NCBI GenBank assembly: GCA_030765065.1
Contig: CM060990.1
Coordinates: 664,900,618-664,964,617, forward strand
Origin: Deroplatys truncata
Taxonomy: Eukaryota; Arthropoda; Insecta; Mantodea; Mantidae
DNA: 64,000 nt
Reading direction: 5' to 3'
Shown here: positions 1 to 51,518 of the stretch, in pieces
Numbering within the stretch: the stretch's first letter is position 1
Layout: every line of letters begins with the position of its first letter
Program-made: the position numbers and the translations under genes
The notes under the pieces: generated by a model
Seen by the model: only the letters and a program-made list of their open reading frames with translations
What the model was told of the DNA's origin: nothing
The model's database searches: none

Positions 1-2807
<2,807 letters not shown>

Positions 2808-2990
2808 TTTATTAAGTATTTAGTATTATATTAATTCCATAACAGTCACATGGGTCATAAGACCGTACATGCTCTCTAGAAAAGTACCTGGACTGTATAC
2901 GTGACTTGCAGTATCGACCAAAAAAGAACTATTTTTTTTTATAATCACCGCACTATATACATACATATAAAACTGAAAAAGCACTCTGAA

Positions 2991-2991
<1 letters not shown>

Positions 2992-3027
<36 letters not shown>
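2992..3027. repeat. (CA)18 microsatellite
   Basis: Perfect CA dinucleotide run. It lies just beyond the 3' end of the minus-strand reverse transcriptase fragment, so it may be the simple-repeat tail of that non-LTR element rather than an independent microsatellite. Confidence 0.9.
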
Positions 3028-3029
<2 letters not shown>

Positions 3030-3070
3030 CACGCACAAGTACTCAAGCACCACATATGTTTAAAGAAAAT

Positions 3071-4303
3071 TTACATAAACACCTCATCTCTTAGTACACG
3101 TACTTCCATTAAGTATGTGCCTAAGCTTGGCCAGTTTTGGCTGTTTAGAATCAAGTTCCAGCATGCTGTCCTCCGTCTCTTGGAAGCCAAAAATACTTCC
3201 GGTAATAGTTTTTTCCTAATACTCTCCGTCTGCACGCATGCTGCCAAAATATGCGTCCAGTCTTCTTGTTCCCCGCATAATGGGCAAATCCTTCTGCCAT
3301 CGTCATCAGCAATCTTGCGAGCTTTCCACCGTCCCAACCTAAGCCATGCTATTCCCGTCCTCTTGTTTTATACCTAATTCCAAAATATGTTTCCTTACCC
3401 CACCTAGTTTTTATTTCATTTTGTAGCTCCAATGTTGATCTTTGTCTACATTCAGACTCTATTTTCTGCCTGTTTATATCGCATAGTCGTCTTTTGACTT
3501 TTCTCACGGCACTGTGTGTATTTTCATTACACCTTAGCCAGATATCATTTAAGCCCATTTTTGATAATTCGCGTTGCAACCCCGCCGCCCACCATTTTGT
3601 ATGCTCTATGTTGTTCATTTGATGACGATAACATATTGCTCTCAGAGTTGTTTGATCACCTTTAATTATTCGCAGCCAACACCTAACTACATTTAGTTTA
3701 GCAAAAACTGCATCTTCCCAGCATCCTACCTCACGAAGAACTCCGTAGTTTGAAGTACCCCTCCCCAACCCTAGAACGCGCTTCCAAAAATTACATTGTA
3801 CTTTATTTACATTATCCACCCTCTCCCATCCCCATACTTCACTGCCGTATAGTAATGAGGACCTAACCATTGCTTCATACATGGTCTGTAATGTTTTTGC
3901 TGGCATATCTGGTACCCGTGTCAGTATCCTTAATACTTCAGAAAGTTGTCCAATCCCTTTGTTTTTTATAAAGTCCATGTTCTTGTTCCATTTTCTGCCC
4001 ATATCAAACCTTACTCCTAAGTAATCGAAGTGTTTAACATTTTGAATTTCTTCCTCCCCATAGGTCCACTTTTCATGTTGGCCGTACACATATCCATTTT
4101 TAAAGGTGACTGTTTTAGTTTTAAGAATATTTACCTCCATACCCCATTGCCTACAATATTGTCGAAGAGCGTTTAAACCAGACTGCAAACCTTTTATCGT
4201 TTTAGAAAGAATTACAATGCCATCCGTAGAAGTTAAGTAGCTTAACCACTGCTCAACGCCAAGCACGGTGTAGAGGTAGCCCAAATCAGTGTCTCGTGGT
4301 TTT
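3071..4303 (-). pseudogene. Non-LTR retrotransposon reverse transcriptase, C-terminal fragment
   Basis: This is the C-terminal part of a LINE-type ORF2 in two frames. The longer piece (4284 to 3349, 311 codons) covers the end of the RT palm and the thumb: it reads TSTDGIVILS where a YADDIVILS-like box is expected, then a KTKTV motif, an FDYLGVRF motif and the LLYGSEVWG motif typical of these enzymes. A frameshift near 3340-3350 leads into the second piece (3337 to 3071), which holds the C-terminal zinc-knuckle-like motif CPLCGEQEDWTHILAAC. The endonuclease and most RT motifs are missing, and the 5' side stops at the Tc1 element at 4306. The catalytic box is damaged, so it is inactive. The clade (Jockey, CR1, RTE or I) cannot be settled by eye. 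Confidence 0.85.
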
Positions 4304-4449
4304 TACGAGGGTTGTTCACCATCTATAGTAACAATATCAGACGAACACAATAGCTCCGCACTGAAACATGTGGAACCGAATGAAAGTTCAGCAGTATGAG
4401 TGTATCAATGCGTTTGCTCAGTTGTGTGCTGTTGTTCTTGCTGCATCAA

Positions 4450-5515
4450 ATGGCGTCAAAAATAGAAACATTCTGATAAGGGTGCATTATTGCCCTTTCC
4501 GAATCAAAATACTTATATTCTATGATTATTAAGCAGTGCAAGAGGTATGGTTTTACCATATCCAAGAAAGTTATCTCATGTGCACTGAACAAAAAAGTAA
4601 GGCCACATCAGGACTTATTCCAAAGGGCAAGAAACAGGGAAATCTACGACCGGCCACCAGTCGCACCCCGGAGACAATTTGGAAGGTGAAGGCCCATGAC
4701 TCAGACGGCCATTGTACTGTTATTAGGGATCCCTGTTACTACTGTGAACACCATAATCATCCAGGATTTGAATCTAGAAAAGTGCCATAAGAGCCGGGGA
4801 TATAAGCTGTTGCCTAAACACATTGCAGAACGTGCCACTAACAACAGAAAGCTATATGAACGATACCTCGCTGGTGAAAAGTGGATGTTTGCTGTCTGTT
4901 GAGATGAAACATGTGTTTATTTAAGTGACTGCACAAACCCTGGGCTATATGTTACCAACCAAAGGGAGAAAAAAGATTTGAAAGTTAGTATAAGGAAACC
5001 AACGAAAATTTCCCCAATGGTTTCATGGTAATAGCAAGGTACAGTTACAATGGCAAATTAACCATTCGTCGTGTACCTATTTAAAAATGTGAAATTCAAC
5101 TCGGCATATTATCAGACTAACGTCCTGATACCAATTTTTCATACAGAAATCCCTGCTGTCTATGGTGCAGATGTAAATAAAGTCTGGTGGCATCAGGATA
5201 CGGCAGCAAGCCATAAGTCTGTTTCAACCTACAACATTTTGGAGAACATAGACAGGGAAATGGTAATACATTCCATACCTTTCAGCGACATCCATGTTAA
5301 GTCATGTAATGTATCACTGATGGAGTTTGTGCATTTGGGTTACTGAAAAGAGCCTTGGAAGTACGCGACCGCCAGGAGGAATGGAATAAACTAGACATCC
5401 ATGTATTTCGTAGGAGTTTGATCCAGTGGAAGCTGTGATAGCTCAAGCTAAAGGCTGCCAGATAAAACATCACTGCTGGTGGAGGCGTGGTTTTTCTAAG
5501 GTAAGGGTCTTAAGT
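4450..5515 (+). pseudogene. Tc1/mariner transposase pseudogene
   Basis: A likely start is the ATG at 4450 (MASKIETF), followed at once by a stop. Downstream, in shifting frames, are a helix-turn-helix-like segment (GIPVTTVNTII), the region of the first catalytic Asp (DETCVYLSD, about 4903-4929), the second-Asp region WWHQDTAASH (about 5185-5215) and a degenerate third acidic region, SCNVSLMEF (about 5302). Several in-frame stops and frameshifts make it inactive. The two C-terminal tryptophans (WWRRG) are still recognisable just before the nested insertion. Superfamily placement is firm; the subfamily (maT/DD37D-like) is a guess. Confidence 0.8.
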
Positions 5516-13371: not shown

Positions 13372-13900
13372 TGTCACGCAGTGGCTATGTCCCAAGGCTA
13401 ATGGGAGGTTGGCGCCGGGCGGTCGGTGTAAACAACGATAACCGCCGCTCGCCAGCGTTAACATAGGGAGATAAACAGGACCTTCTGGAAGCTTCTTCAC
13501 CCCCTCCTCCAGAAAGTGCGTTGAAAAGTTCTAGAATTTTCGAGAACCTTGTGGAATGATTCCACTGACTATATAAGCGAGCGCTCTCACAAGAGGAGTC
13601 AGTGGGAGTTGAGTGCGAGTTACTTGCGTCGGAGCAAGCGAATTGGTGGGTGAGCTTCCTTTGTGACATCAGAAGGGATTCTCCGACCGAGTTGGTGACA
13701 GCTGTTGTGACGTGCAACCAGGGCTACTGCGCAGAGACGGGTTGTAGAGGTCTTGTATCGAATCCCGAGTGAAGGAACTCCGGCGTGAAGAGGCTACCTA
13801 CGTCACGAAGAAAGCGAAGCGAGGGAGAATTTAACTAGTTCACTATAGTGAAGTGACTTTAGCGAATTCGAACTAGACTTCTTTATAGCTATTCAAATGA
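13372..13900 (+). mobile_element. Dispersed repeat with heat-shock-type promoter, copy A (possible LTR)
   Basis: Starts TGTCACGCAG and aligns by eye with the copy starting TGTTACACAG at 44284. Shared blocks include GGCGCCGGGC/CAGCGCCGGGC, CTCGCCAGCGT, a CTTCTGGA block, the CTATATAAGC TATA region, TCAGTG, GTGACGTGCA, and GAAGAGGCTAC near the 3' side. The right limit is approximate because the copies diverge. TG start, internal promoter and dispersal fit a solo LTR. A retro-copied or captured heat-shock gene promoter with its 5' untranslated region is an alternative. No coding sequence follows. Confidence 0.6.
13483..13604 (+). promoter_or_regulatory. Heat-shock elements, TATA box and initiator
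   Basis: Distal element at 13483-13495: TTCtgGAAgcTTC, three perfect alternating units. Proximal element at 13529-13546: TTCtaGAAttTTCgaGAA, four perfect units, extended by weaker units to about 13563. TATATAAG lies at 13570-13577, 24 bp downstream, and an arthropod-type initiator TCAGTG at 13599-13604 puts the +1 A 31 bp after the first T of the TATA box. Element order and spacing match classical heat-shock gene promoters bound by HSF. Function is inferred, not shown. Confidence 0.75.
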
Positions 13901-15148: not shown

Positions 15149-15451
15149 TTAAAATTAAATTAAATTGAGTTTTAGTTGTTGACGATCTTTAACTGCTGTG
15201 GTTATTTGCGTCCCATTCTATATTGGGCGTTAAAGACCGGTAATTTTAAGGCCTCTTTATCAGGCTTGAGGTTTTTCACGTGCCGTAAATCTACGACACG
15301 GGACCACCGGCTTCACTTCCCTTACAAAGGAAGCCATGCTAAGGATTTTTACGCCCGAAAAAAAATCAATCGCCCTCCGCCGGGTTTGAATCCACGACCT
15401 CGGGAACTAGAGGCTAGTCTGGTAACCACTACACCACAGAGGATGACGAGC
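15149..15451 (-). mobile_element. tRNA-derived SINE, family B, copy 1
   Basis: On the minus strand the head reads TGGTGTAGTGGTTACC (A box) and GGATTCAAACCC (B box), followed by a body with TTACGGCACGTGAAAAACC and CGCCCAATATAGAATGGG. The tail is AATTTAATTTTAATTTT-like. Flanks CATGTTCAAAA (15138) and CATGTTGAGAA (15452) look like its target duplication. The same family occurs on the plus strand at 21.6 kb. Confidence 0.85.
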
Positions 15452-22616: not shown

Positions 22617-23501
22617 CGAGGGCTGATCAGTAAAGACTGAGACTAATTTTTTTAACAGATATTTATTACTCCATTTCAATGTTGACATGGTCTTTTTCAA
22701 AGTAGTCCTCTTCTACTTGAATGCACTTTTTATGGCGTCTCTGCAAGTCCTCGAACACATGGTACAGGCCATTCTTTGTCAGGTCTTTGAGAATCGCCTC
22801 ACTTTTCTTCAGCACTGCTTCAGTGATCTCAAATCGAATGCCCCGGAGCTTTGCCTTTAGTGATGGGAATAAAAATAAATCACAGGGGACAAGATTGGGG
22901 CTATAAGGCAGATGCGCCACACAGGTAATGTTGAATTTAGCCAAAAATTCCTGGACTTGATTTGCAACGTGAGGCCGCACGTTGTTGTGATAAGTTCTGG
23001 ATGTTTCCTTGCAATGTGCTTCCTCGGTGTAGCCAATACTGACGTGTAGTACGCTGCTGTAACAGTGGTGTGAGTGGGAACAACAATCACAGCAGCTGTG
23101 TTGATGTTGACTTCAGTCATAGCAGAAGCCGAAGCACCAGGCCCACCTTGCTTAGCACAGAGGACTCGCTCTACTTTGAAGTCCTTGAACCACCTAAACA
23201 CTGTTGCACGAAGTGGTGCATCTTCACCGTATGCTTGCTTCAGCTCTTCCAAAGTTTCAAAGGCCGTATGATTTAAACGAAAACAAAGTTTTATTGCTCC
23301 TCTTGTGTCACCTTCATTTTGTGGTATGCGAAATTCAACTAGGGTCAACAATATACAGCATTACTACCGATACGAGAGTGCTGCCGCCTATGGACATTAT
23401 ACATGGAACCCTGCTCTTTTCAAATATTCATGGTAGAGACAGGAAACTCTCAAGAAAGCTGCAGGAGAAAATCAATCTCAGTCTTTATTGATCAGCCCTC
23501 G
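22617..23501 (-). mobile_element. Mariner (DD34D) element with internal deletion, copy 1
   Basis: TA-flanked, with inverted termini CGAGGGCTGATCAGTAAAGA / CGAGGGCTGATCAATAAAGA. On the minus strand the transposase keeps its N-terminal helix-turn-helix region (LCFRLNHTAFETLEELKQAY ... VFRWFKDF), then jumps to the TTVTAAYYTSVLATPRKHIA region. The usual first catalytic Asp region (GDESWLHHYD) is missing. A frameshift follows near 22980 and the second-Asp motif (normally HHDNARPHV) is broken. The third Asp survives in PYSPNLVPCD, with the C-terminus reaching the TIR. It is non-autonomous and inactive, and belongs to the same family as the copy at 33.2 kb. Confidence 0.9.
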
Positions 23502-25582: not shown

Positions 25583-25949
25583 ATACACGATGGACCATTT
25601 AAGTTGAGACTGTACAACATCTCCAGAACTAAACTTTGTAGAAAGAAATGTTTCAATAAAATTTGCTTGATATTATGGGGAAAGTAAATGCCATTAGTCG
25701 TGTTTTATTTGGAGGACGTTATGATGGTCATTCTAAGGTCAATTTAATTCTTTTTAATGGGACCCTACAATTAGAGTCAATTTAAATTGACCCTAAATGA
25801 CCATCACAACGTCCTCCAAACAAAACACGACTAATGGCATTTACTTTCCCTCATAATATCAAGCAACTTTTATTCAAGAAATTTCTTTCTACAACGCTTA
25901 GTTTTGGAGACATTGCACAGCCTCAACTTAAATGGTCACTCTTTATCTA
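25583..25949. mobile_element. Foldback MITE, IS630-related family, short form
   Basis: Nearly the whole element is an inverted repeat: the left arm runs from GGACCATTTAAGTTGAGACT (25593) to TGATGGTCATTCTAAGG, and the right arm is its complement ending in CTCAACTTAAATGGTC (about 25938). The arms also share the CGTGTTTTATTTGGAGGACG block. The spacer is only about 30 bp. The arms match the ends of the 630 bp MITE at 47.5 kb and the flank of the transposase remnant at 34.7 kb. Confidence 0.85.
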
Positions 25950-31395: not shown

Positions 31396-32500
31396 CAGCC
31401 AAGCTAGCGCTATGGCAGTACTTTGTGACTTGTCCAAAGCTTTTGATTGCGTGAATCATGCAACTATCTGCTATAAACTAGATTTTTATGGAATACGAGG
31501 TAAAACCCTGAATTTAATTAGGACTTATTTATCAAATAGCATTCAAGTAACTTCCATTAAGAGCAAACTCTCAAACTCTGTTAAAAATAGATACAGGGGT
31601 GCCTCAGGGATTTATTTTGGGTCCTTTGATGTTATTGATATTGATTAACGACTTTCCCTTAAACACAAGCTGTGACTCAGTATTATTTGCAGATGACACC
31701 TCACTCTTGACTAATCGTTTATCTTTAATTGGTATTAATCGATTTATGGATTCCTTTTTTCATGCAGTTGCGAAATGGTTTGATGCCAATGGCTTTAAGC
31801 TTAACACTAAGAAAACCCAGAGTATATATTTTACGCTTAAGCAAACTTCTCATTATATGTCCACTGAAGTTAAATTATTAGGTATTGTTTTGGATTCCAA
31901 GCTTACTTGGGTTGGTCACATTTCCTATGTCTGCTAAAGGTTGTCTCGTGTACTATTTTTATTGGGTCATTTGAAAAATCACATTCCCAGACACCATCTT
32001 AAGCAAGCTTATTACGCTTTCTTTCATTTCATAATGTCTTATGGTATCCTTATTTAGGGTAATAGTGCCAATATAAAAAAAGTATTAACTCTGCAGAAAA
32101 AGGCCTTAAGGATTATATCTGGTTCAGCGTTTGATGCCCATTGTCGACCTATATTTAAATATTTTAAAATCCTGCAGTAATTAATGAATATATATACACA
32201 TGTTTAGTAATTATTAAGACTAACTTGAATAATCATGCATTTCATCATCAGCAACATTATACTAGAAATGATTATTTTATTGTCACACACAAAGTAAGAT
32301 TGACTAAATCCAAGAAATGGTGTAACAAAATCGGCATCAATATGTTTAACAGATTACCAAGAGCTGCCCATTCAGCTAGCCTAGATAGATTTAAAGTTGC
32401 TTTAAAAGTATGGCTTGCTGCTAACCCATTTTATAGCTTGAATGAATTTTTTCAAGCCAATATTGACATTGCATTTTAAAGTGCTCTTTTTTATATTTTT
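31396..32500 (+). pseudogene. Non-LTR reverse transcriptase fragment (Jockey/CR1-like)
   Basis: RT motifs in order: LCDLSKAFDCVNH (motif A, about 31421), PQGFILGPLMLLILIND (motif B, 31602), VLFADDTSLL (catalytic motif C with both Asp, about 31681), FKLNTKKTQ (motif D) and LGIVLDSKLTW. After several stops the C-terminal part NMFNRLPRAAHSASLDRFK (about 32340) is still readable. A frameshift near 31600 separates A from B. The N-terminal endonuclease and upstream RT are absent; the fragment abuts a SINE body. The LSKAFDCVNH and LFADD forms fit the Jockey/CR1 group. Confidence 0.85.
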
Positions 32501-33204: not shown

Positions 33205-34080
33205 CGAGGGCTGATCAACAAAGACTGAGACAGATTTTTTCCTGTAGCTTCCGTGATAGTTTCGTATCTGTAACATAAATATTTGAAAAGAGCGGGTTTT
33301 TATGTATAATGTTGGTAGGCCGCAGCACTCTCGTATTGGTAGGTTGGTAGTAATGCTCTATTTTGTAGACCCTACCTGCATTTCGCATACCAGACAATGG
33401 GGGTGATGCATTTTTTAAATCGATTATCACCGGTGATGAGTCATGGCTGCATCATTATGATCCTGAAGGAAAACAAGTCAGCACAGTGTGGAAATCGCCA
33501 GGTTCTCCAACACCAAAAAAGGCAGAAGTTGTTCCATCTGTAGGGAAAGTGATGGTGATCACATTTTTTGGCTGTAATGGGATGATTTACCAGCATGCAG
33601 TTCCCCCTCACACTACTGTTACAGTAGCATACTACACGTCAGTATTGGCTACACTGAGGAAGCACATTGCAAAGAAACGACTAGAGCTTTCTCGGACTGG
33701 GTGGCAACTTCATCATGACAATGCACGGCCTCACGTCGCAAATCAAGTCATGCAGTTTCTGGCTCGATTCAACATTACCTGTGTACCACATCCACCTTAT
33801 AGCCCCGATCTTGCACCCTGTGACTTTTTTATTCACATCACTAAAGGCAAAGCTATGGGGGAATTCGATATTAGAACTCTGAAGCAGTTTTTAAGAAAAG
33901 TGAGGTGATTCTCAAGGACCTGACAAAGAATGGTCTGCAGCACGTGTTCAAGGACTGGCAGGGACGCTATAAAAAGTGCATTGAAGTAGGAGGGGACTAC
34001 TTTGAAAAAGATTATGTAAACATTGAGTAATAAACATCTGTGAAAAAAAATCAGACTCAGTCTTTGTTTATCAGCTCTCG
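33205..34080 (+). mobile_element. Mariner (DD34D) element with N-terminal deletion, copy 2
   Basis: TA-flanked, with inverted termini CGAGGGCTGATCAACAAAGA and its counterpart at 34061-34080. The transposase is open from about 33420: first Asp in ITGDESWLHHYDPEG, second in QLHHDNARPHVANQV, third in HPPYSPDLAPCDFF, so all three acidic positions are intact. A frameshift near 33905 and stops disrupt the C-terminus, and the DNA-binding N-terminus is deleted: the 5' UTR-like sequence jumps from GCATTTCGCATACCAGACAA to the catalytic domain. It therefore cannot be autonomous. The deletion is complementary to that of the copy at 22.6 kb. Confidence 0.9.
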
Positions 34081-42632: not shown

Positions 42633-44283
42633 CTTCCGTTTCTCTGTTTCAAACGTTCTATATCTCCTCATTCCACTATCACCCGATTCCTAGCTTCTTT
42701 CATTGGGGTCCTAAGGCTATCTGGCTTTTTGCGAACATTGGCCCTTTTCTGCTAGCCTGCGTTCCCATGCAACCTAACGGGACGCTTAACAATAGAGTAC
42801 AACCACCCGTTTCCGGCCGCTGATGGCTTTGCCTCTCAACCCTTATTTCAACTTACAGTAACATTCGCTTGCCAGTTTTATTTAATACTATCCTCGCCGT
42901 TACTGATATGTATTCTCCCTATGATCTTAATTTTATTTTACTACTCAAAATATACTGTTTCAATGTGAAAAAAGTACTTTTCCTCTATGGTTACCAAAAG
43001 CAAACTTCCAATAAAAAATCGCTTGTCAGTGTTATTCTATAGACAAAAGGGTACAAAAATTACAAGAATGCTGGCATTAGTCCACACTCTACACCATTAT
43101 AGCAAACGTGATATCCCAACACTGTCAGGCATGTACATTTAAATGTGCAGCGTGCTTCAGATACATACACCTCAATTAGATGTGATGCCTATGGTAACAG
43201 GCGCTTTCGAGAATCAGATTTACTGTCTAAGCCCTTGGTATGCCGGAAACTTTTCTGTTTTAACTGCGTAGAAAGACGATCTACTCTGCTAATGGCGCTT
43301 ATGACATCGATCGGTAGCTTTCCCCTTTTGTAAAGTTGATCCTCTCGCTGTACTGGTAAAGCAGAGAAGTTACCAATACACGAGGGGTTTAAGTAAAATC
43401 TAATAATCCAAATCATATATTATTATATGCGACAAAACTAACTGAATCAGACTGTGCCCTGCGGTATTAAAACTCCAAACACCAAACAACTGCTTCTTAT
43501 GGGGAATAATTAAAGACATTGTCTACCAGGTGCGTCTTACGGCCAGACAAGATATGAAAGAAAGAATCTGGCCTCCTGTGCGTCTCTCAGCAGTGATTAA
43601 CTTCTCCGTGGCATCAGTGATGTTAAGAGTAGGTCGCAGTATTGTGCAGCACAGGGTGGTGAACGTTTCCATCATTTAGAGTGAGTTTTCACAATCATTA
43701 CCATCGGTACGTATAACATTTATCAGATGTCATTATTAATTAGTTTACTTTTGTCTATCATTTGTGAGTACACATCAGAAGACACAAACAAAGTTTTGGT
43801 AAAAGTTGTTTTATTTTAAAAGTACTATCCAATGATACCTTAAACAACCCATGACCCCATTTAAAATTTCAAAGTTTGATCACGAATACCCGTACTTTCG
43901 GTTTGTTCCGGAAAATCGAAATACCACCAATCGTTTCTATACATATGTTTTGGTTATGAAATTGTTTTTGCGAACAAGTATCTTAGTTTTAGAGAAAAAC
44001 GGCTGATACGGTTGCACTGGGACACCCGGTATAAATCTGTGCTAATATGCGCGTAAATAGTTATTACTTAGTCAATTATTTATATAAATACAAAAGGTAT
44101 TTACGAGATTCTGTTTCTTTCTGGGGGCAAAAGTGGCTAACCTGTATTAAATTAAAAATTTGGAACACTTGCAAATGAGACACAACCATAATATACTGAT
44201 ACACATAATTGTAAGGAGCTGTACACTCCTTGGGTTTTGAGATAGGAATCTCCACCTTGTGTGTGGTGTGTCTACATAAATAT
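42633..44283. other. Unassigned stretch with a possible transposon end
   Basis: No gene seen. At 44010-44032 GGTTGCACTGGGACACCCGG followed by TATA looks like the terminal motif of a DNA transposon (many arthropod elements end in a GGGACACCC-type repeat), but I found no matching left end in the window. Confidence 0.4.
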
Positions 44284-44404
44284 TGTTACACAGCAGCTAT
44301 GGCCCAGGGATATCGGGAGGTCAGCGCCGGGCAGTCGAAGATAAACGAAGATAAATAGCGCTCTCGCCAGCGTAAATACCGGAAGCGCTATCGTCAGATA
44401 ACCA

Positions 44405-44494
44405 GAATCTTCTGGATGTTTCTCCTCGAACGTTCTAGAGCTCTGTGAAAGGCTCAAACGGCTATATAAGCAACTACTCTCGCAAATCAGTGAG
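44405..44494 (+). promoter_or_regulatory. Heat-shock elements, TATA box and initiator, copy B
   Basis: GAAtcTTCtgGAt at 44405-44417, a nearby TTC at 44420, and GAAcgTTCtaGAg at 44428-44440, then TATATAAG at 44463-44470 and TCAGTG at 44487-44492 (A 26 bp after the first T of the TATA box). The HSE units are less perfect than in copy A but the arrangement is the same. The later insertion struck within this initiator. Confidence 0.65.
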
Positions 44495-46554
44495 TTATTT
44501 ATTAATTTTTTTAGGGGGGGGGACAGGAATAAAGGTGTAAGGAAAGAAAACAAGAATAAGTAGGTAATTGGAAGGAAAAGGGAAGAGGAATAGAAAGGAT
44601 TTAATACTGTGGTATCGCTGTTTAATTGGGGCATAATGGTGATAATGGTGGCAGGTACCACCGAAGCAAATCCGCTATTTGTGAGTACCTACTTCTTAGA
44701 ATTTGGCGGAGTACTCCGCAGTGATAAGTAGGTATCTGCCATGGCCGAAGCCCTTACAGGGACCTATGACAGTGGTGTTGTAACAGACAATTTTGGCTCT
44801 GTACCCGGGGCTCTTACCTCCGGGCGTTGGTTTTGCGACTGGCGTGGCCAGAAAGTTCTGGGCCATGTGGTCGCGTATTGTGGTGCGATGGCTCTCCTGG
44901 TGGTGGTCGCGTGATCTGCGATTCTGTCCCGTTGGTATTCATTACCCTGGCGAAGGGCGGTACGGCTGTTGTAGTCCATCTTCTCTATGGTGTTCGCGTG
45001 CTGTTGTTCTTCTGTGTTTGTGAGTTCTCCGATGACCCTAAGTAGGACGTACTCTAGAGAGCTTACACAACTCAGCATGAAGATCTTGAATTGTTACAAG
45101 GATGCTGTTGTTGCTCATTGTGTTGTTCACTAGAAGGCTGTTGGTGCTAGCCAACTGCTGTTCCAGGCGTGAGGTGTCAATCGGAGGTGGCGGTGGTGGT
45201 GTGCAGTTCTGCGGTACTTTGATGTGATCGATCGGCGATGTTTGAAGTAGTTTTTTAATTTAGCTCCACGTTTGGGAAGCCAATTTGAAGTTGGTAGTTG
45301 CTGCTACGTATGGATGCCAGTTTGAAGTTGCGGTTTTTCTTTACGTTGTTTGCACCACGTATGAACGTCAATTTGATGTAGGTCTTATTGAAGGAGTTGT
45401 ATCATAGTTCAACTGTTGGGGAGCCGAACTTGATATTCGTTGCAATCGCACGTATAGTACCCGGTTTCGGTAACCTTCGCCCCAAGTTTAAATACATTAG
45501 CTTTGTAATTTGACTGTTTCTTTAGATATTATATATTTATGTTTGCCTCGACTGCGTCAGTATTATTGTTACAGACATGGAAGTCTTGGTAGAGTTGTGG
45601 TGCGACTGAAGAATGTAGGCTTACACAGATTTTAAGTTTTAATTCACTCCTTTTTGTTAATCCTTGACACAAATTAAATAGCACTTCACTGATATAGAGA
45701 GCTGTGAGATTAACTTGCACTTTTTAACACGTAAACTATTCTCGTCTCACACAAATACATATAAAATTTCTTAGGACACGTTTTGCGTCTGCTTAGTAAC
45801 GCTGTCTGGAACCAACTGAATAGATTTCAACCGCCCAAACCTGTAAATTTCTGTATTTCAAGTCTCTGATTGGCTTATCCTAGTCCAATAGAATAGCTTC
45901 ATTTAACTAAAGTTTTCCTGGTTGTTGATTGGCTGTTTTTTTTAAACTATCTCAAAATTTACATTATTGCTGCTCTAATAATGACTAGTAGTATTACTAA
46001 ACTTCCTTACTCATTATTGCCTCAAGGTTACCTCATTGTTACCTCATTGTTAGCAATTTTAAACCTATTTATCACAGTTCCTACATTATTAAATTACGTA
46101 ATATATTCACATAACATTATTACACATGGATACATTAATATAAACATTTACAATGGCCGTAATATACACTTTTTATATATTGTTACATACACATATTGTT
46201 TTAAGGTGGGCTGTTATTGAATTTATACATTATATAATTAGACTGAAATTATTTAAGTGTTAAAAATACTGCCTCATGTTCTATTTGGGTAGTGTGGATA
46301 GACGGCTTGACCAGTGAAGTGCCCCTTACCCCCGCAGGAGGCGCAGAAGCGGCGTCGTTGGGTCAGGTCGTGTGCCCGTCAGTCGGCGGTGAGTATCCCG
46401 TTGCCACAGTAATGGCAGCGGGGTGCGGCGTCACTTGTCTCTGTGTGCCCGTAGAGGTAGCAGCGGCGGCATGATGTTGGACGAACTCTGCGGCTGGCCT
46501 CGAGCAAGAGATTGTCCTAACAAGAGCAATCTTGCACCCAGGTCCGAGTTAGTC
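44495..46554 (-). mobile_element. Non-LTR retrotransposon ORF1-type fragment, split by an LTR-like element
   Basis: Bounded by a perfect 10-bp duplication AATCAGTGAG (44485 and 46555), with a 3' tail rich in A (minus strand) at 44495-44512. The minus strand near 46475-46330 encodes zinc knuckles: CRRCYLYGH with a following Cys, CHYCGNGILTAD, a stop, and CASCGGKGHFTG, typical of gag-like ORF1 proteins of LINEs. No reverse transcriptase is present, so this is an internally deleted or ORF1-only derivative. The LTR-like copy 9 lies inside it. Confidence 0.7.
45243..46276 (-). mobile_element. LTR-like repeat family, copy 9
   Basis: TGAAGTAG to CTGCCTCA, with a perfect TGTT duplication (45239 and 46277). 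The distal end has the largest number of subterminal units: TGAAG-like starts at 45243, 45286, 45323, 45374 (TGATG) and 45389. Confidence 0.9.
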
Positions 46555-46871
46555 AATCAGTGAGGGAGAGCGTTTCTGATGCGACGAAAGTTACACTTCA
46601 CCTAGCAAGTTTGTGACGAGTGCCGTGACGTGCAGTGAGTGCTGCTGCAGGAGAGATTGGAGAAGTCTTGTGTTTGACTCGCAGACGAGTGAACCGCCCG
46701 GAAGAAGAGGCTACGTCGTGCATAGTGAAGTGGCAGTGAAAAGTTGAGCTTTGTTACATCAGAGAAGTGGCAGTGAGAACTTAAAGGAGTGACAGTTTAA
46801 AAGAATGGACAAAGTCAGAATACGCTAATTCTACAGAGTAGATTTTGCAATCTTTTTCACAAGTGGTAACA

Positions 46872-50246: not shown

Positions 50247-51518
50247 GTATTTCTATTGGTGTCATATATTTGGGGGACGTGTTCCTGACATCAAAACAGT
50301 AAAAAAAAGGTCATATGTGCATGTGTCTGAAAATCAACCGTTTCGTTGTTATAGGTCAAAGAAGATGTATTCAATGACTGAACAGACGGATATGCTCTAT
50401 ACATATGGCCGTGCAGACGGCAATGCAGCACGAGCACGTGAACTTTATGCAGAAAGGTACCCTGACAAACCGTTACCGTGTGCAAGAACATTTGCACGAA
50501 TTGACTAACGCTTGAGAGAGAATGGCGCATTTGAGAGGAGTACTAGGGATATTGGGAGACCAAGAGCGGTACGAGGAATTGAGCTTGAAGAACGAGTTCT
50601 TCGTGCTGTGGATGCAGACCCATCACAAAGCACAAGAAGGGAAAGAGTTAGTCATACGATTATCTGGAGAATTCTACATGAAAATCTTCTGTACCCGTAT
50701 CAGCTTCAACGTGTGCAAGGAATAAATGAGGCGGACTTTGAGCTAAGAAGACGTTTCTGTTAACGCATGTTACAGCAGTACACTGTGTTCATCAATTTCC
50801 TAGCCTGTATCTTATTCGCGGATGAGGCATCTTCAGTTTTCATAACACTCATAACTGGGCATTTAAAAATCCTAATGAAGTACGACAGGATAACCATCAA
50901 CAGAGGTTCTCTCAACGTTTGGAGTGGAATCATTCATGATCAACTTATTGGTCCCTACTTCTTCCCTCCGGTCTGAATGGACAAACCTATTCAAGTTTCT
51001 CAGAAATGAGTTGCATCAATTAACTGATAATGTGTCTCTGAACATCAGCCAACGAATGCGGTTTTTACACGATGGTGCTCCAGCTCATTTTAGTATGATA
51101 GTTCGTAAGTTTTTGAATAATCGATTTCTGCAAAGATGGATTGGTCGATGGGGACCCGTTGCATGGCCTGCTCAATCGCCTGATTTGAATCCAATGTATT
51201 TCTTCGTCTGGGGACATTTGAAGCCATTGGTTTATACGACTCCTGTACCTGATGTTGAAATTTTAAGAGGACGTATCCAAACTGGATTTGACCAAATACG
51301 AAACACACCAGGAATTTTCAACAGAGTACACCAGAAAATGGAATGCAGGCTTACTGCATGCATCGAAGCAAGAGCAAGCCACTTCGAGCAATTTTTGTAA
51401 CTTTCGATTTTCTGTTGTAACTGAAATAAATGATTTTCAGACCCATTTTCATATGAACTTTTTTACTCTGTTGATGACAAGAACACGTCCCCTAAATATA
51501 TGACACCAATAAAGATAC
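50247..51518 (+). mobile_element. Near-complete Tc1/mariner-superfamily element with ~80 bp terminal repeats
   Basis: Left end ATTGGTGTCATATATTTGGG (50254) and right end the inverted ATTGGTGTCATATATTTAGG (to about 51510). The similarity continues inwards through GGACGTGTTC and (GT)AAAAAA, up to a shared TCTGAAAATC about 80 bp in. The total of about 1.27 kb holds one transposase frame. Exact outer limits and the target duplication are uncertain because GTAT occurs at both edges. Confidence 0.85.
50365..51400 (+). pseudogene. Transposase (DUF4817-type helix-turn-helix plus DDE), inactivated
   Basis: Start at the ATG at 50365. The N-terminal domain is YGRADGNAARARELYAERYP then RTFARI (helix-turn-helix of the type called DUF4817), ended by a stop at 50506 and resuming as RLRENGAFERSTRDIGRPRA. 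First Asp region: LFADEASSVF (about 50815). Second Asp: LHDGAPAHFS (about 51067). The third acidic region reads SPDLNPMYFFVWGHLK (51177-51224), where the usual D in NPxDFF is Y, so the catalytic triad is broken even apart from the stop and two or three frameshifts. Length matches the family's usual ~350 residues. Confidence 0.85.

Follow-up and report, generated by a model that had tools for sequence, protein, structure and literature searches.

By promoter anatomy, though not by family, ONSEN/COPIA78, together with other heat-responsive COPIA families of Brassicaceae, is among the closest described parallels to the element reported here (PMC5059998). ONSEN is a plant COPIA element whose heat response has been demonstrated (PMC5059998), whereas the heat response proposed here is read from the promoter. 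The present family also differs from ONSEN in its integrase remnants, which we read as Gypsy-type, its internal deletions, and its great abundance. Caenorhabditis Helitrons, which carry 61.4% of C. elegans heat shock elements (HSEs), are similar in that one transposon class holds most HSEs (28 of 50 sampled sites in our case, under a different HSE definition), but they are DNA transposons, and HSF-1 binding and links to heat-induced genes have been shown for them (PMC6927752). The Cryptococcus LTR retrotransposons TCN3 and TCN12 share putative HSEs in the LTR and a proposed control by Hsf1; these elements are fungal, TCN3 with two such sites and TCN12 with one, and their mobilization at 37 degrees has been measured (PMC12810828).

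In structure, PbTRIM from the ant Pogonomyrmex barbatus is comparable, being a small non-autonomous LTR element with a leucine-tRNA PBS, 4-bp ATAT duplications, and abundant solo LTRs (PMC3532108). PbTRIM has a noncoding interior, a U3 of 61 to 64 bp, and many young copies, and the available part of its description mentions no HSE (PMC3532108), whereas the LTR described here is about 600 bp long and belongs to elements with coiled-coil and integrase remnants in the interior. No arthropod LTR with HSE arrays was described among the titles and abstract openings listed by our literature search, with most subscription journals outside it.

An LTR copy with an hsp-type promoter

We analyzed a 64,000-nucleotide stretch of DNA from the mantid Deroplatys truncata (the window), for which a dispersed repeat with a heat shock promoter had been proposed. 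The genome searched comprises 4.29 Gb in 818 contigs, and the window lies on contig C16 (707 Mb). A first look at the genome returned 6,775 candidates, confirming that the segment is a real dispersed repeat, and the perfect three- and four-unit HSEs, the TATA box, and the initiator all lie where the original prediction had placed them. The features of the window copy are as follows.

13372..13876, + strand: solo LTR, 3'-truncated, 505 bp, delimited from the ends of 39 other copies aligned with it
13483..13495, + strand: HSE-A, a three-unit array without mismatch (TTC-GAA-TTC), at -118 to -106 relative to the predicted start
13529..13546, + strand: HSE-B, perfect four-unit array TTC-GAA-TTC-GAA, -72 to -55
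13549..13551 and 13554..13556, + strand: imperfect TTG and GAA, in register after HSE-B (6 positions, mean majority frequency 0.938 in 40 copies)
13570..13576, + strand: TATA box TATATAA, exact in 26 of 40 copies
13584..13588, + strand: CTCTC between TATA box and initiator, which we take to be a GAGA-type motif
13599..13604, + strand: initiator TCAGTG, with the predicted transcription start at A 13601

Alignment of the copies places the 5' end of the window copy exactly at 13372. The 3' end, at about 13876, is the point at which the match to other copies falls off, with some 60 to 80 bp missing, and no target duplication is recognizable at this truncated copy. Counted from the first T of the TATA box, the predicted start at A 13601 is 31 bp away, and it may mark the U3/R border. 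Taken as a set, the HSEs, TATA box, GAGA-type motif, and initiator resemble what we take to be the usual makeup of insect hsp promoters. What remains at this place is an old relic, truncated but with its core promoter intact.

The four-unit HSE exceeds chance: the window contains one, against a mean of 0.02 in 100 dinucleotide shuffles, of which 2 had any match. The three-unit, TTC-first pattern matches four times on the two strands, against 0.57 expected; two of these matches fall within the four-unit array and one lies elsewhere, at 25873.

Further matches to the LTR in the window are confined to 44.3 and 46.6 kb.

44279..44500, + strand: 5' portion of another LTR copy in a more decayed state (44279 to 44427 by BLAST, the remainder by eye)
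46570..46830, + strand: downstream portion of an LTR copy, perhaps that of 44279..44500, with about 2 kb of other sequence in between

We infer that the two parts were once a single LTR copy; the roughly 2 kb that separates them (44500 to 46570) starts with T- and G-runs. The copy at 44.3 kb had been said to keep the promoter arrangement. It does retain TATATAA (44463 to 44469) and TCAGTG (44487 to 44492), but its HSEs are degraded (TTC-GAT-TTC at 44410 to 44422 and GAA-TTC-GAG at 44428 to 44440), so that it has no perfect three-unit array.

The window also holds remnants of other elements: RVT_1 reverse transcriptase at 3349 to 4302 (- strand, below the Pfam cutoff) and 31551 to 31937 (+ strand); transposase of the types HTH_48 (Mos1-type), Transposase_1, and DDE_3 (below cutoff) at 22857 to 23360 (- strand), 33369 to 33908 (+ strand), and 50894 to 51400 (+ strand); and a tRNA-derived SINE-like stretch, recognized by eye, at about 15375 to 15445 (- strand).

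LTR ends, target duplications, and copy number

Forty of the 6,775 candidates were scored, and the 39 besides the window copy are 75 to 78% identical to it. For alignment we used 39 of these 40 best matches (the window copy included; L025, a split copy, was left out) and the second LTR of locus L028; the 40 aligned copies were thus picked for their closeness to the window copy and do not sample the family at random. The family unit starts with TGTGAC and ends with GTCACA, and it measures about 550 to 610 bp in copies with both ends. Both ends were matched within 5 mismatches in 18 of the 40 copies, 2 of the 18 being the inner-ended LTRs of L028. ATAT, with at most one mismatch, adjoins 15 of these copies on the left, 14 on the right, and 12 on both sides; the flanking 4-mers are identical in 10 of the 18, and ATAT occurs at a control position further out in 1 of the 18.

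Most copies are solitary, with one LTR match only in 14 of 20 stretches of 9.9 kb taken around copies. In L028, two direct LTRs (2726 to 3332 and 4370 to 4999) flank 1,036 bp, with ATAT at both outer LTR ends and at neither inner end; the outer ends of L019 likewise carry the ATAT target duplication. The first LTR of L028 is followed by TGGTGTCAGAAGTGGG, and a purine-rich run, GAGGAGGGAG in L015 and L009, stands ahead of the second LTR. Genome-wide searches gave 756 matches for the PBS junction and 513 for the PPT-LTR junction, and the reversed control of each gave 0. The features that define an LTR retrotransposon were all found, namely, direct TG...CA LTRs, a short target duplication, a tRNA-complementary PBS, and a polypurine tract (PPT), and the window repeat is a solo LTR of a high-copy LTR retrotransposon family. 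Helitrons have neither LTRs nor target duplications, and the LTRs and 4-bp target duplications seen here rule out that class.

A tRNA 3' end able to pair with the PBS occurs 187 times in the genome. Among 100 places listed, 94 are clustered, 72 of them at C9:218.98-219.46 Mb, with many spacings of about 149 bp, and 22 at C3:74.37-74.49 Mb; these clusters are probably tandem tRNA gene arrays. We presume the tRNA to be a leucine tRNA. The same label would follow by analogy with PbTRIM (PMC3532108). On C15, between 96.56 and 97.87 Mb, six PPT-LTR junctions spaced about 0.16 to 0.38 Mb apart share one single difference, perhaps as a result of large duplications.

Internal region and family assignment

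The commonest complete form seen consists of two LTRs around about 1 kb in which a coiled-coil remnant adjoins an integrase zinc finger. The internal region of L028 also occurs in L015, L019, L048, L030, and partly L009, making 6 of the 49 sequences compared (the window and 48 loci ranging from 3 to 9.9 kb, for many of which the flank was limited to 1.5 kb). In L045, two pieces of LTR are separated by about 950 bp, and the internal region gave no match at the threshold used. Pfam searches of stop-to-stop pieces identified Integrase_H2C2 over the cutoff in L015 (E = 1.5e-7) and L028 (E = 3e-8), and the other five of the seven internal pieces gave no Pfam match over the cutoff. The interior of L030 is longer (1,805 bp), and both its H2C2 (E = 4.4e-6) and its rve core (E = 3.9e-8) pass the cutoff. 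A search of the interior for gag and pol, which the original prediction recommended, recovered integrase remnants; no reverse transcriptase (RT) or RNase H was seen in the internally deleted copies, and the coiled-coil segment, whose Pfam matches all fall below the cutoffs, is called gag-like by its location alone.

From the integrase, the family is read as internally deleted derivatives of a Ty3/Gypsy-type element, an assignment made from domains (H2C2 and rve) that are not exclusive to Ty3/Gypsy. A TRIM was rejected: the interior is not noncoding, containing coiled-coil and integrase remnants, and the LTR is about 600 bp long.

A search with the L030 integrase piece gave 7,454 candidates, of which 150 were scored. 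At least 5 of the 150 places lie 0.57 to 0.85 kb ahead of a listed PPT-LTR junction and at least 2 lie downstream of a listed PBS junction, within 1.3 and 4.3 kb, with distances taken between low coordinates; both counts are lower bounds from listings of 100 of the 513 PPT places and 100 of the 756 PBS places. With the strands flipped, no integrase place lies beside a listed PPT or PBS junction. PBS-to-PPT intervals shorter than 12 kb among the listed junctions measure 898, 961, 1,011, 1,021, and 7,563 bp, and on C6 one listed PBS lies 3.8 to 4.3 kb upstream of an integrase match. Together, the junction pairing and the integrase places are at most suggestive of an RT-bearing partner, for which C6:88.79 Mb and C5:117.30-117.31 Mb are candidate places. 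C16 holds 103 of the 150 listed integrase matches, though it makes up 16.5% of the genome, versus 4 of 24 exact PBS junctions. Longer copies may be preferentially kept on this contig (low recombination?), or the search may favor relatives of L030, which is itself on C16.

Conservation of the promoter across copies

The longest perfect run of TTC/GAA units at 5-bp spacing has four units in 20 of the 40 copies, three in 10, and two in 10; among 4,000 shuffles, a four-unit run arose in 0.03% and a three-unit run in 1.1%. Two separate arrays of at least three units are present in 16 of the 40 copies and in none of the 4,000 shuffles. TCAGT follows 15 to 60 bp downstream in 23 of the 26 copies with an exact TATATAA, which is missing from the other 14, and the TATA-to-A spacing is 31 to 33 bp in 14 of the 23 copies with both exact motifs. 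Among the 35 copies with a TATA-like match, 25 have GAGAG or CTCTC no more than 35 bp from where that match starts, a count that has no chance control. A polyadenylation signal in the LTR was considered and rejected, AATAAA or ATTAAA being present past position 300 in only 10 of the 40 copies.

Conservation of the HSE-A units is average (0.867, a value reached by 77% of random LTR position sets), and the HSE-B units are slightly better kept (0.940, a level that 1.2% of random position sets attain); of the 467 LTR windows of 18 bp, 87, counting HSE-B's own, match or surpass the one at HSE-B. Genome searches with 27 fixed bases and up to 3 mismatches gave 2,824 matches for the HSE stretch (0 in the control) versus 2,957 for the downstream (R/U5) LTR stretch, indicating that the HSE stretch is retained no better. 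We do not claim that selection keeps the HSE in individual copies, as this idea gains no support from the rank of the 18-bp window or from the counts across the genome. At C16:85309215-85310364, four exact copies of a 27-mer from the downstream LTR part lie 224 to 450 bp apart, and part of the LTR appears to have been tandemly amplified there.

The perfect four-unit HSE pattern occurs at 4,530 sites in the genome, versus 396 for the reversed pattern. We compared the first 50 of the 4,530 places, all on C1, with the LTR form by their 18 bases, not their surroundings: 28 are within one base of it (0.8% expected) and 34 within two (6.3% expected). By the former count, the LTR family appears to supply more than half of the genome's perfect four-unit HSEs, as judged from a small, one-chromosome sample. 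The remaining 16 are at least three bases away from it, with the form TTCTTGAATTTTCTGGAA seen twice, and a second repeated HSE source besides the LTR is possible. The HSF DNA-binding domain has one match in the genome, on C8.

Age and the current state of the HSE arrays

The LTR pair of L028 differs by a K2P distance of 0.125 over 582 columns, and partial pairs of 270 to 419 columns give 0.206 for L015, 0.226 for L019, 0.224 for L030, and 0.268 for L048. These distances indicate that the insertions, and the activity that produced them, are old. The median pairwise difference among copies is 0.23 (780 pairs). As far as the compared copies tell, the LTR family amplified long ago.

We consider it likely that the repeat is a solo LTR from a non-autonomous family of Ty3/Gypsy type, internally deleted and with an hsp-type promoter in its U3, a reading that postulates HSF binding, heat induction, mobilization in trans, and LTR-LTR recombination. 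Several observations count against it: the HSE stretch is retained no better than the stretch downstream of the start, the HSE-A units are conserved no better than random LTR positions, the HSE-B window is equaled by many others, 10 of the 40 copies have at most two adjacent perfect units, 14 lack the exact TATA box, the LTR-pair distances speak for old activity, and no copy with reverse transcriptase was seen. A serious alternative, to which we give slightly less than even weight, accepts the LTR as described but holds that its HSE arrays do not work today; the copies, derived from a master that was possibly once heat responsive, would be silenced and decaying and would have no effect on the host. 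The age of the copies, by LTR-pair and median pairwise distances alike, and the genome-wide retention counts favor this alternative, whereas the perfect four-unit run still present in half of the aligned copies and the excess of four-unit sites over the reversed pattern, with a good part of these sites in this LTR, oppose it. It is compatible with the preferred reading of how the family spread in the past.

It is improbable that the GAA/TTC arrays are unrelated to HSF, whether as sites for another factor or as a side effect of a U3 that is palindromic and rich in CpG. In favor of this explanation, many other stretches of the LTR are equally conserved. Against it stand two separate arrays, one with three units and one with four to six, that keep a strict 5-bp register 45 to 118 bp upstream of the predicted start, and the presence of two arrays of at least three units in 16 copies against no shuffle.

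Comparison with Hsp70 promoters

The original prediction allowed that the repeat might instead be a copied hsp gene promoter and leader, which would have spread by segmental duplication or retrocopying. The hsp-like order of the HSE, TATA, GAGA-type, and initiator motifs is in keeping with such an origin. An Hsp70 search gave five matches across the full domain in one piece, one of them with an internal stop. With eight LTR copies as queries, no extended similarity to the upstream kilobases of these five Hsp70 genes was found, the 20 best matches listed being just 11 to 37 bp long. The lowest E value (5.8e-4) belongs to a 23-bp match outside the LTR, in flanking sequence of L018 past the LTR end; the next-lowest, an identity of 16 bp between L002 and two of the Hsp70 upstream stretches, is the HSE itself. 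A perfect three-unit HSE is present in three of the five upstream stretches, and a four-unit run was not found in any of the five. We therefore reject a copied promoter of any of these five Hsp70 genes, and since the repeat has LTR ends, target duplications, a PBS, a PPT, and integrase remnants, an hsp-promoter origin is very improbable.

Least probable of all is a non-autonomous, MITE-like DNA transposon with short terminal inverted repeats (ATATTGTGAC/GTCACAATAT), which would suit the mostly solitary copies and nearly symmetrical ends but which, like a SINE, is ruled out by complete elements such as L028, with two direct LTRs around an interior with PBS and PPT and ATAT at the outer ends only, and is further opposed by the structures of L015, L019, and L048.

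Discussion

The original prediction is borne out in part. Its mobile element is supported by the LTR structure, target duplications, PBS, PPT, and integrase remnants and by an HSE-TATA-initiator block that recurs across copies, and the promoter anatomy points to HSF-type control; its other suggestion, a copied hsp promoter, finds only short matches, the HSE among them, in the upstream stretches of five Hsp70 genes. The result is a real, ordinary-looking retroelement with an unusual promoter, and an ONSEN-like function is proposed from the anatomy of that promoter alone.

Under the retroelement reading that we prefer, heat or proteotoxic stress would bring HSF trimers to two arrays, that of four to six units at -72 to -45 and that of three units at -118 to -106, and bound HSF would drive transcription from the TATA box and initiator of the 5' LTR. 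The element RNA would be primed by the host tRNA that matches the PBS, and proteins of an RT-bearing relative would copy it and insert it in trans at ATAT targets. LTR-LTR recombination would then leave mostly solo LTRs, each an HSE-TATA-initiator cassette. That the ancestral element was heat responsive seems fairly likely in our judgment, if somewhat less so than the assignment of the LTR itself. A more far-reaching version is rather unlikely: an internally deleted Ty3/Gypsy family would have captured an hsp-grade promoter, with its two HSE arrays, TATA box, GAGA-type motif, and initiator, would have spread by virtue of that promoter, and would be the source of most strong HSF sites in the genome. 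Its solo LTRs would today serve as promoters or enhancers inducible by heat, or as decoys that govern how much HSF is free, and would in this way shape the heat shock response of the host.

HSE-bearing transposons have been linked to heat responses in plants, through ONSEN, and in nematodes, through Helitrons. If an LTR family of an animal carries a full hsp-type promoter and, as in our sample, contributes more than half of the perfect four-unit HSEs in a 4.3 Gb genome, it would constitute an independent case. It would permit a direct test of whether stress-responsive promoters aid the spread of non-autonomous retroelements and of whether HSF sites in their thousands dampen the response of the host or widen it.
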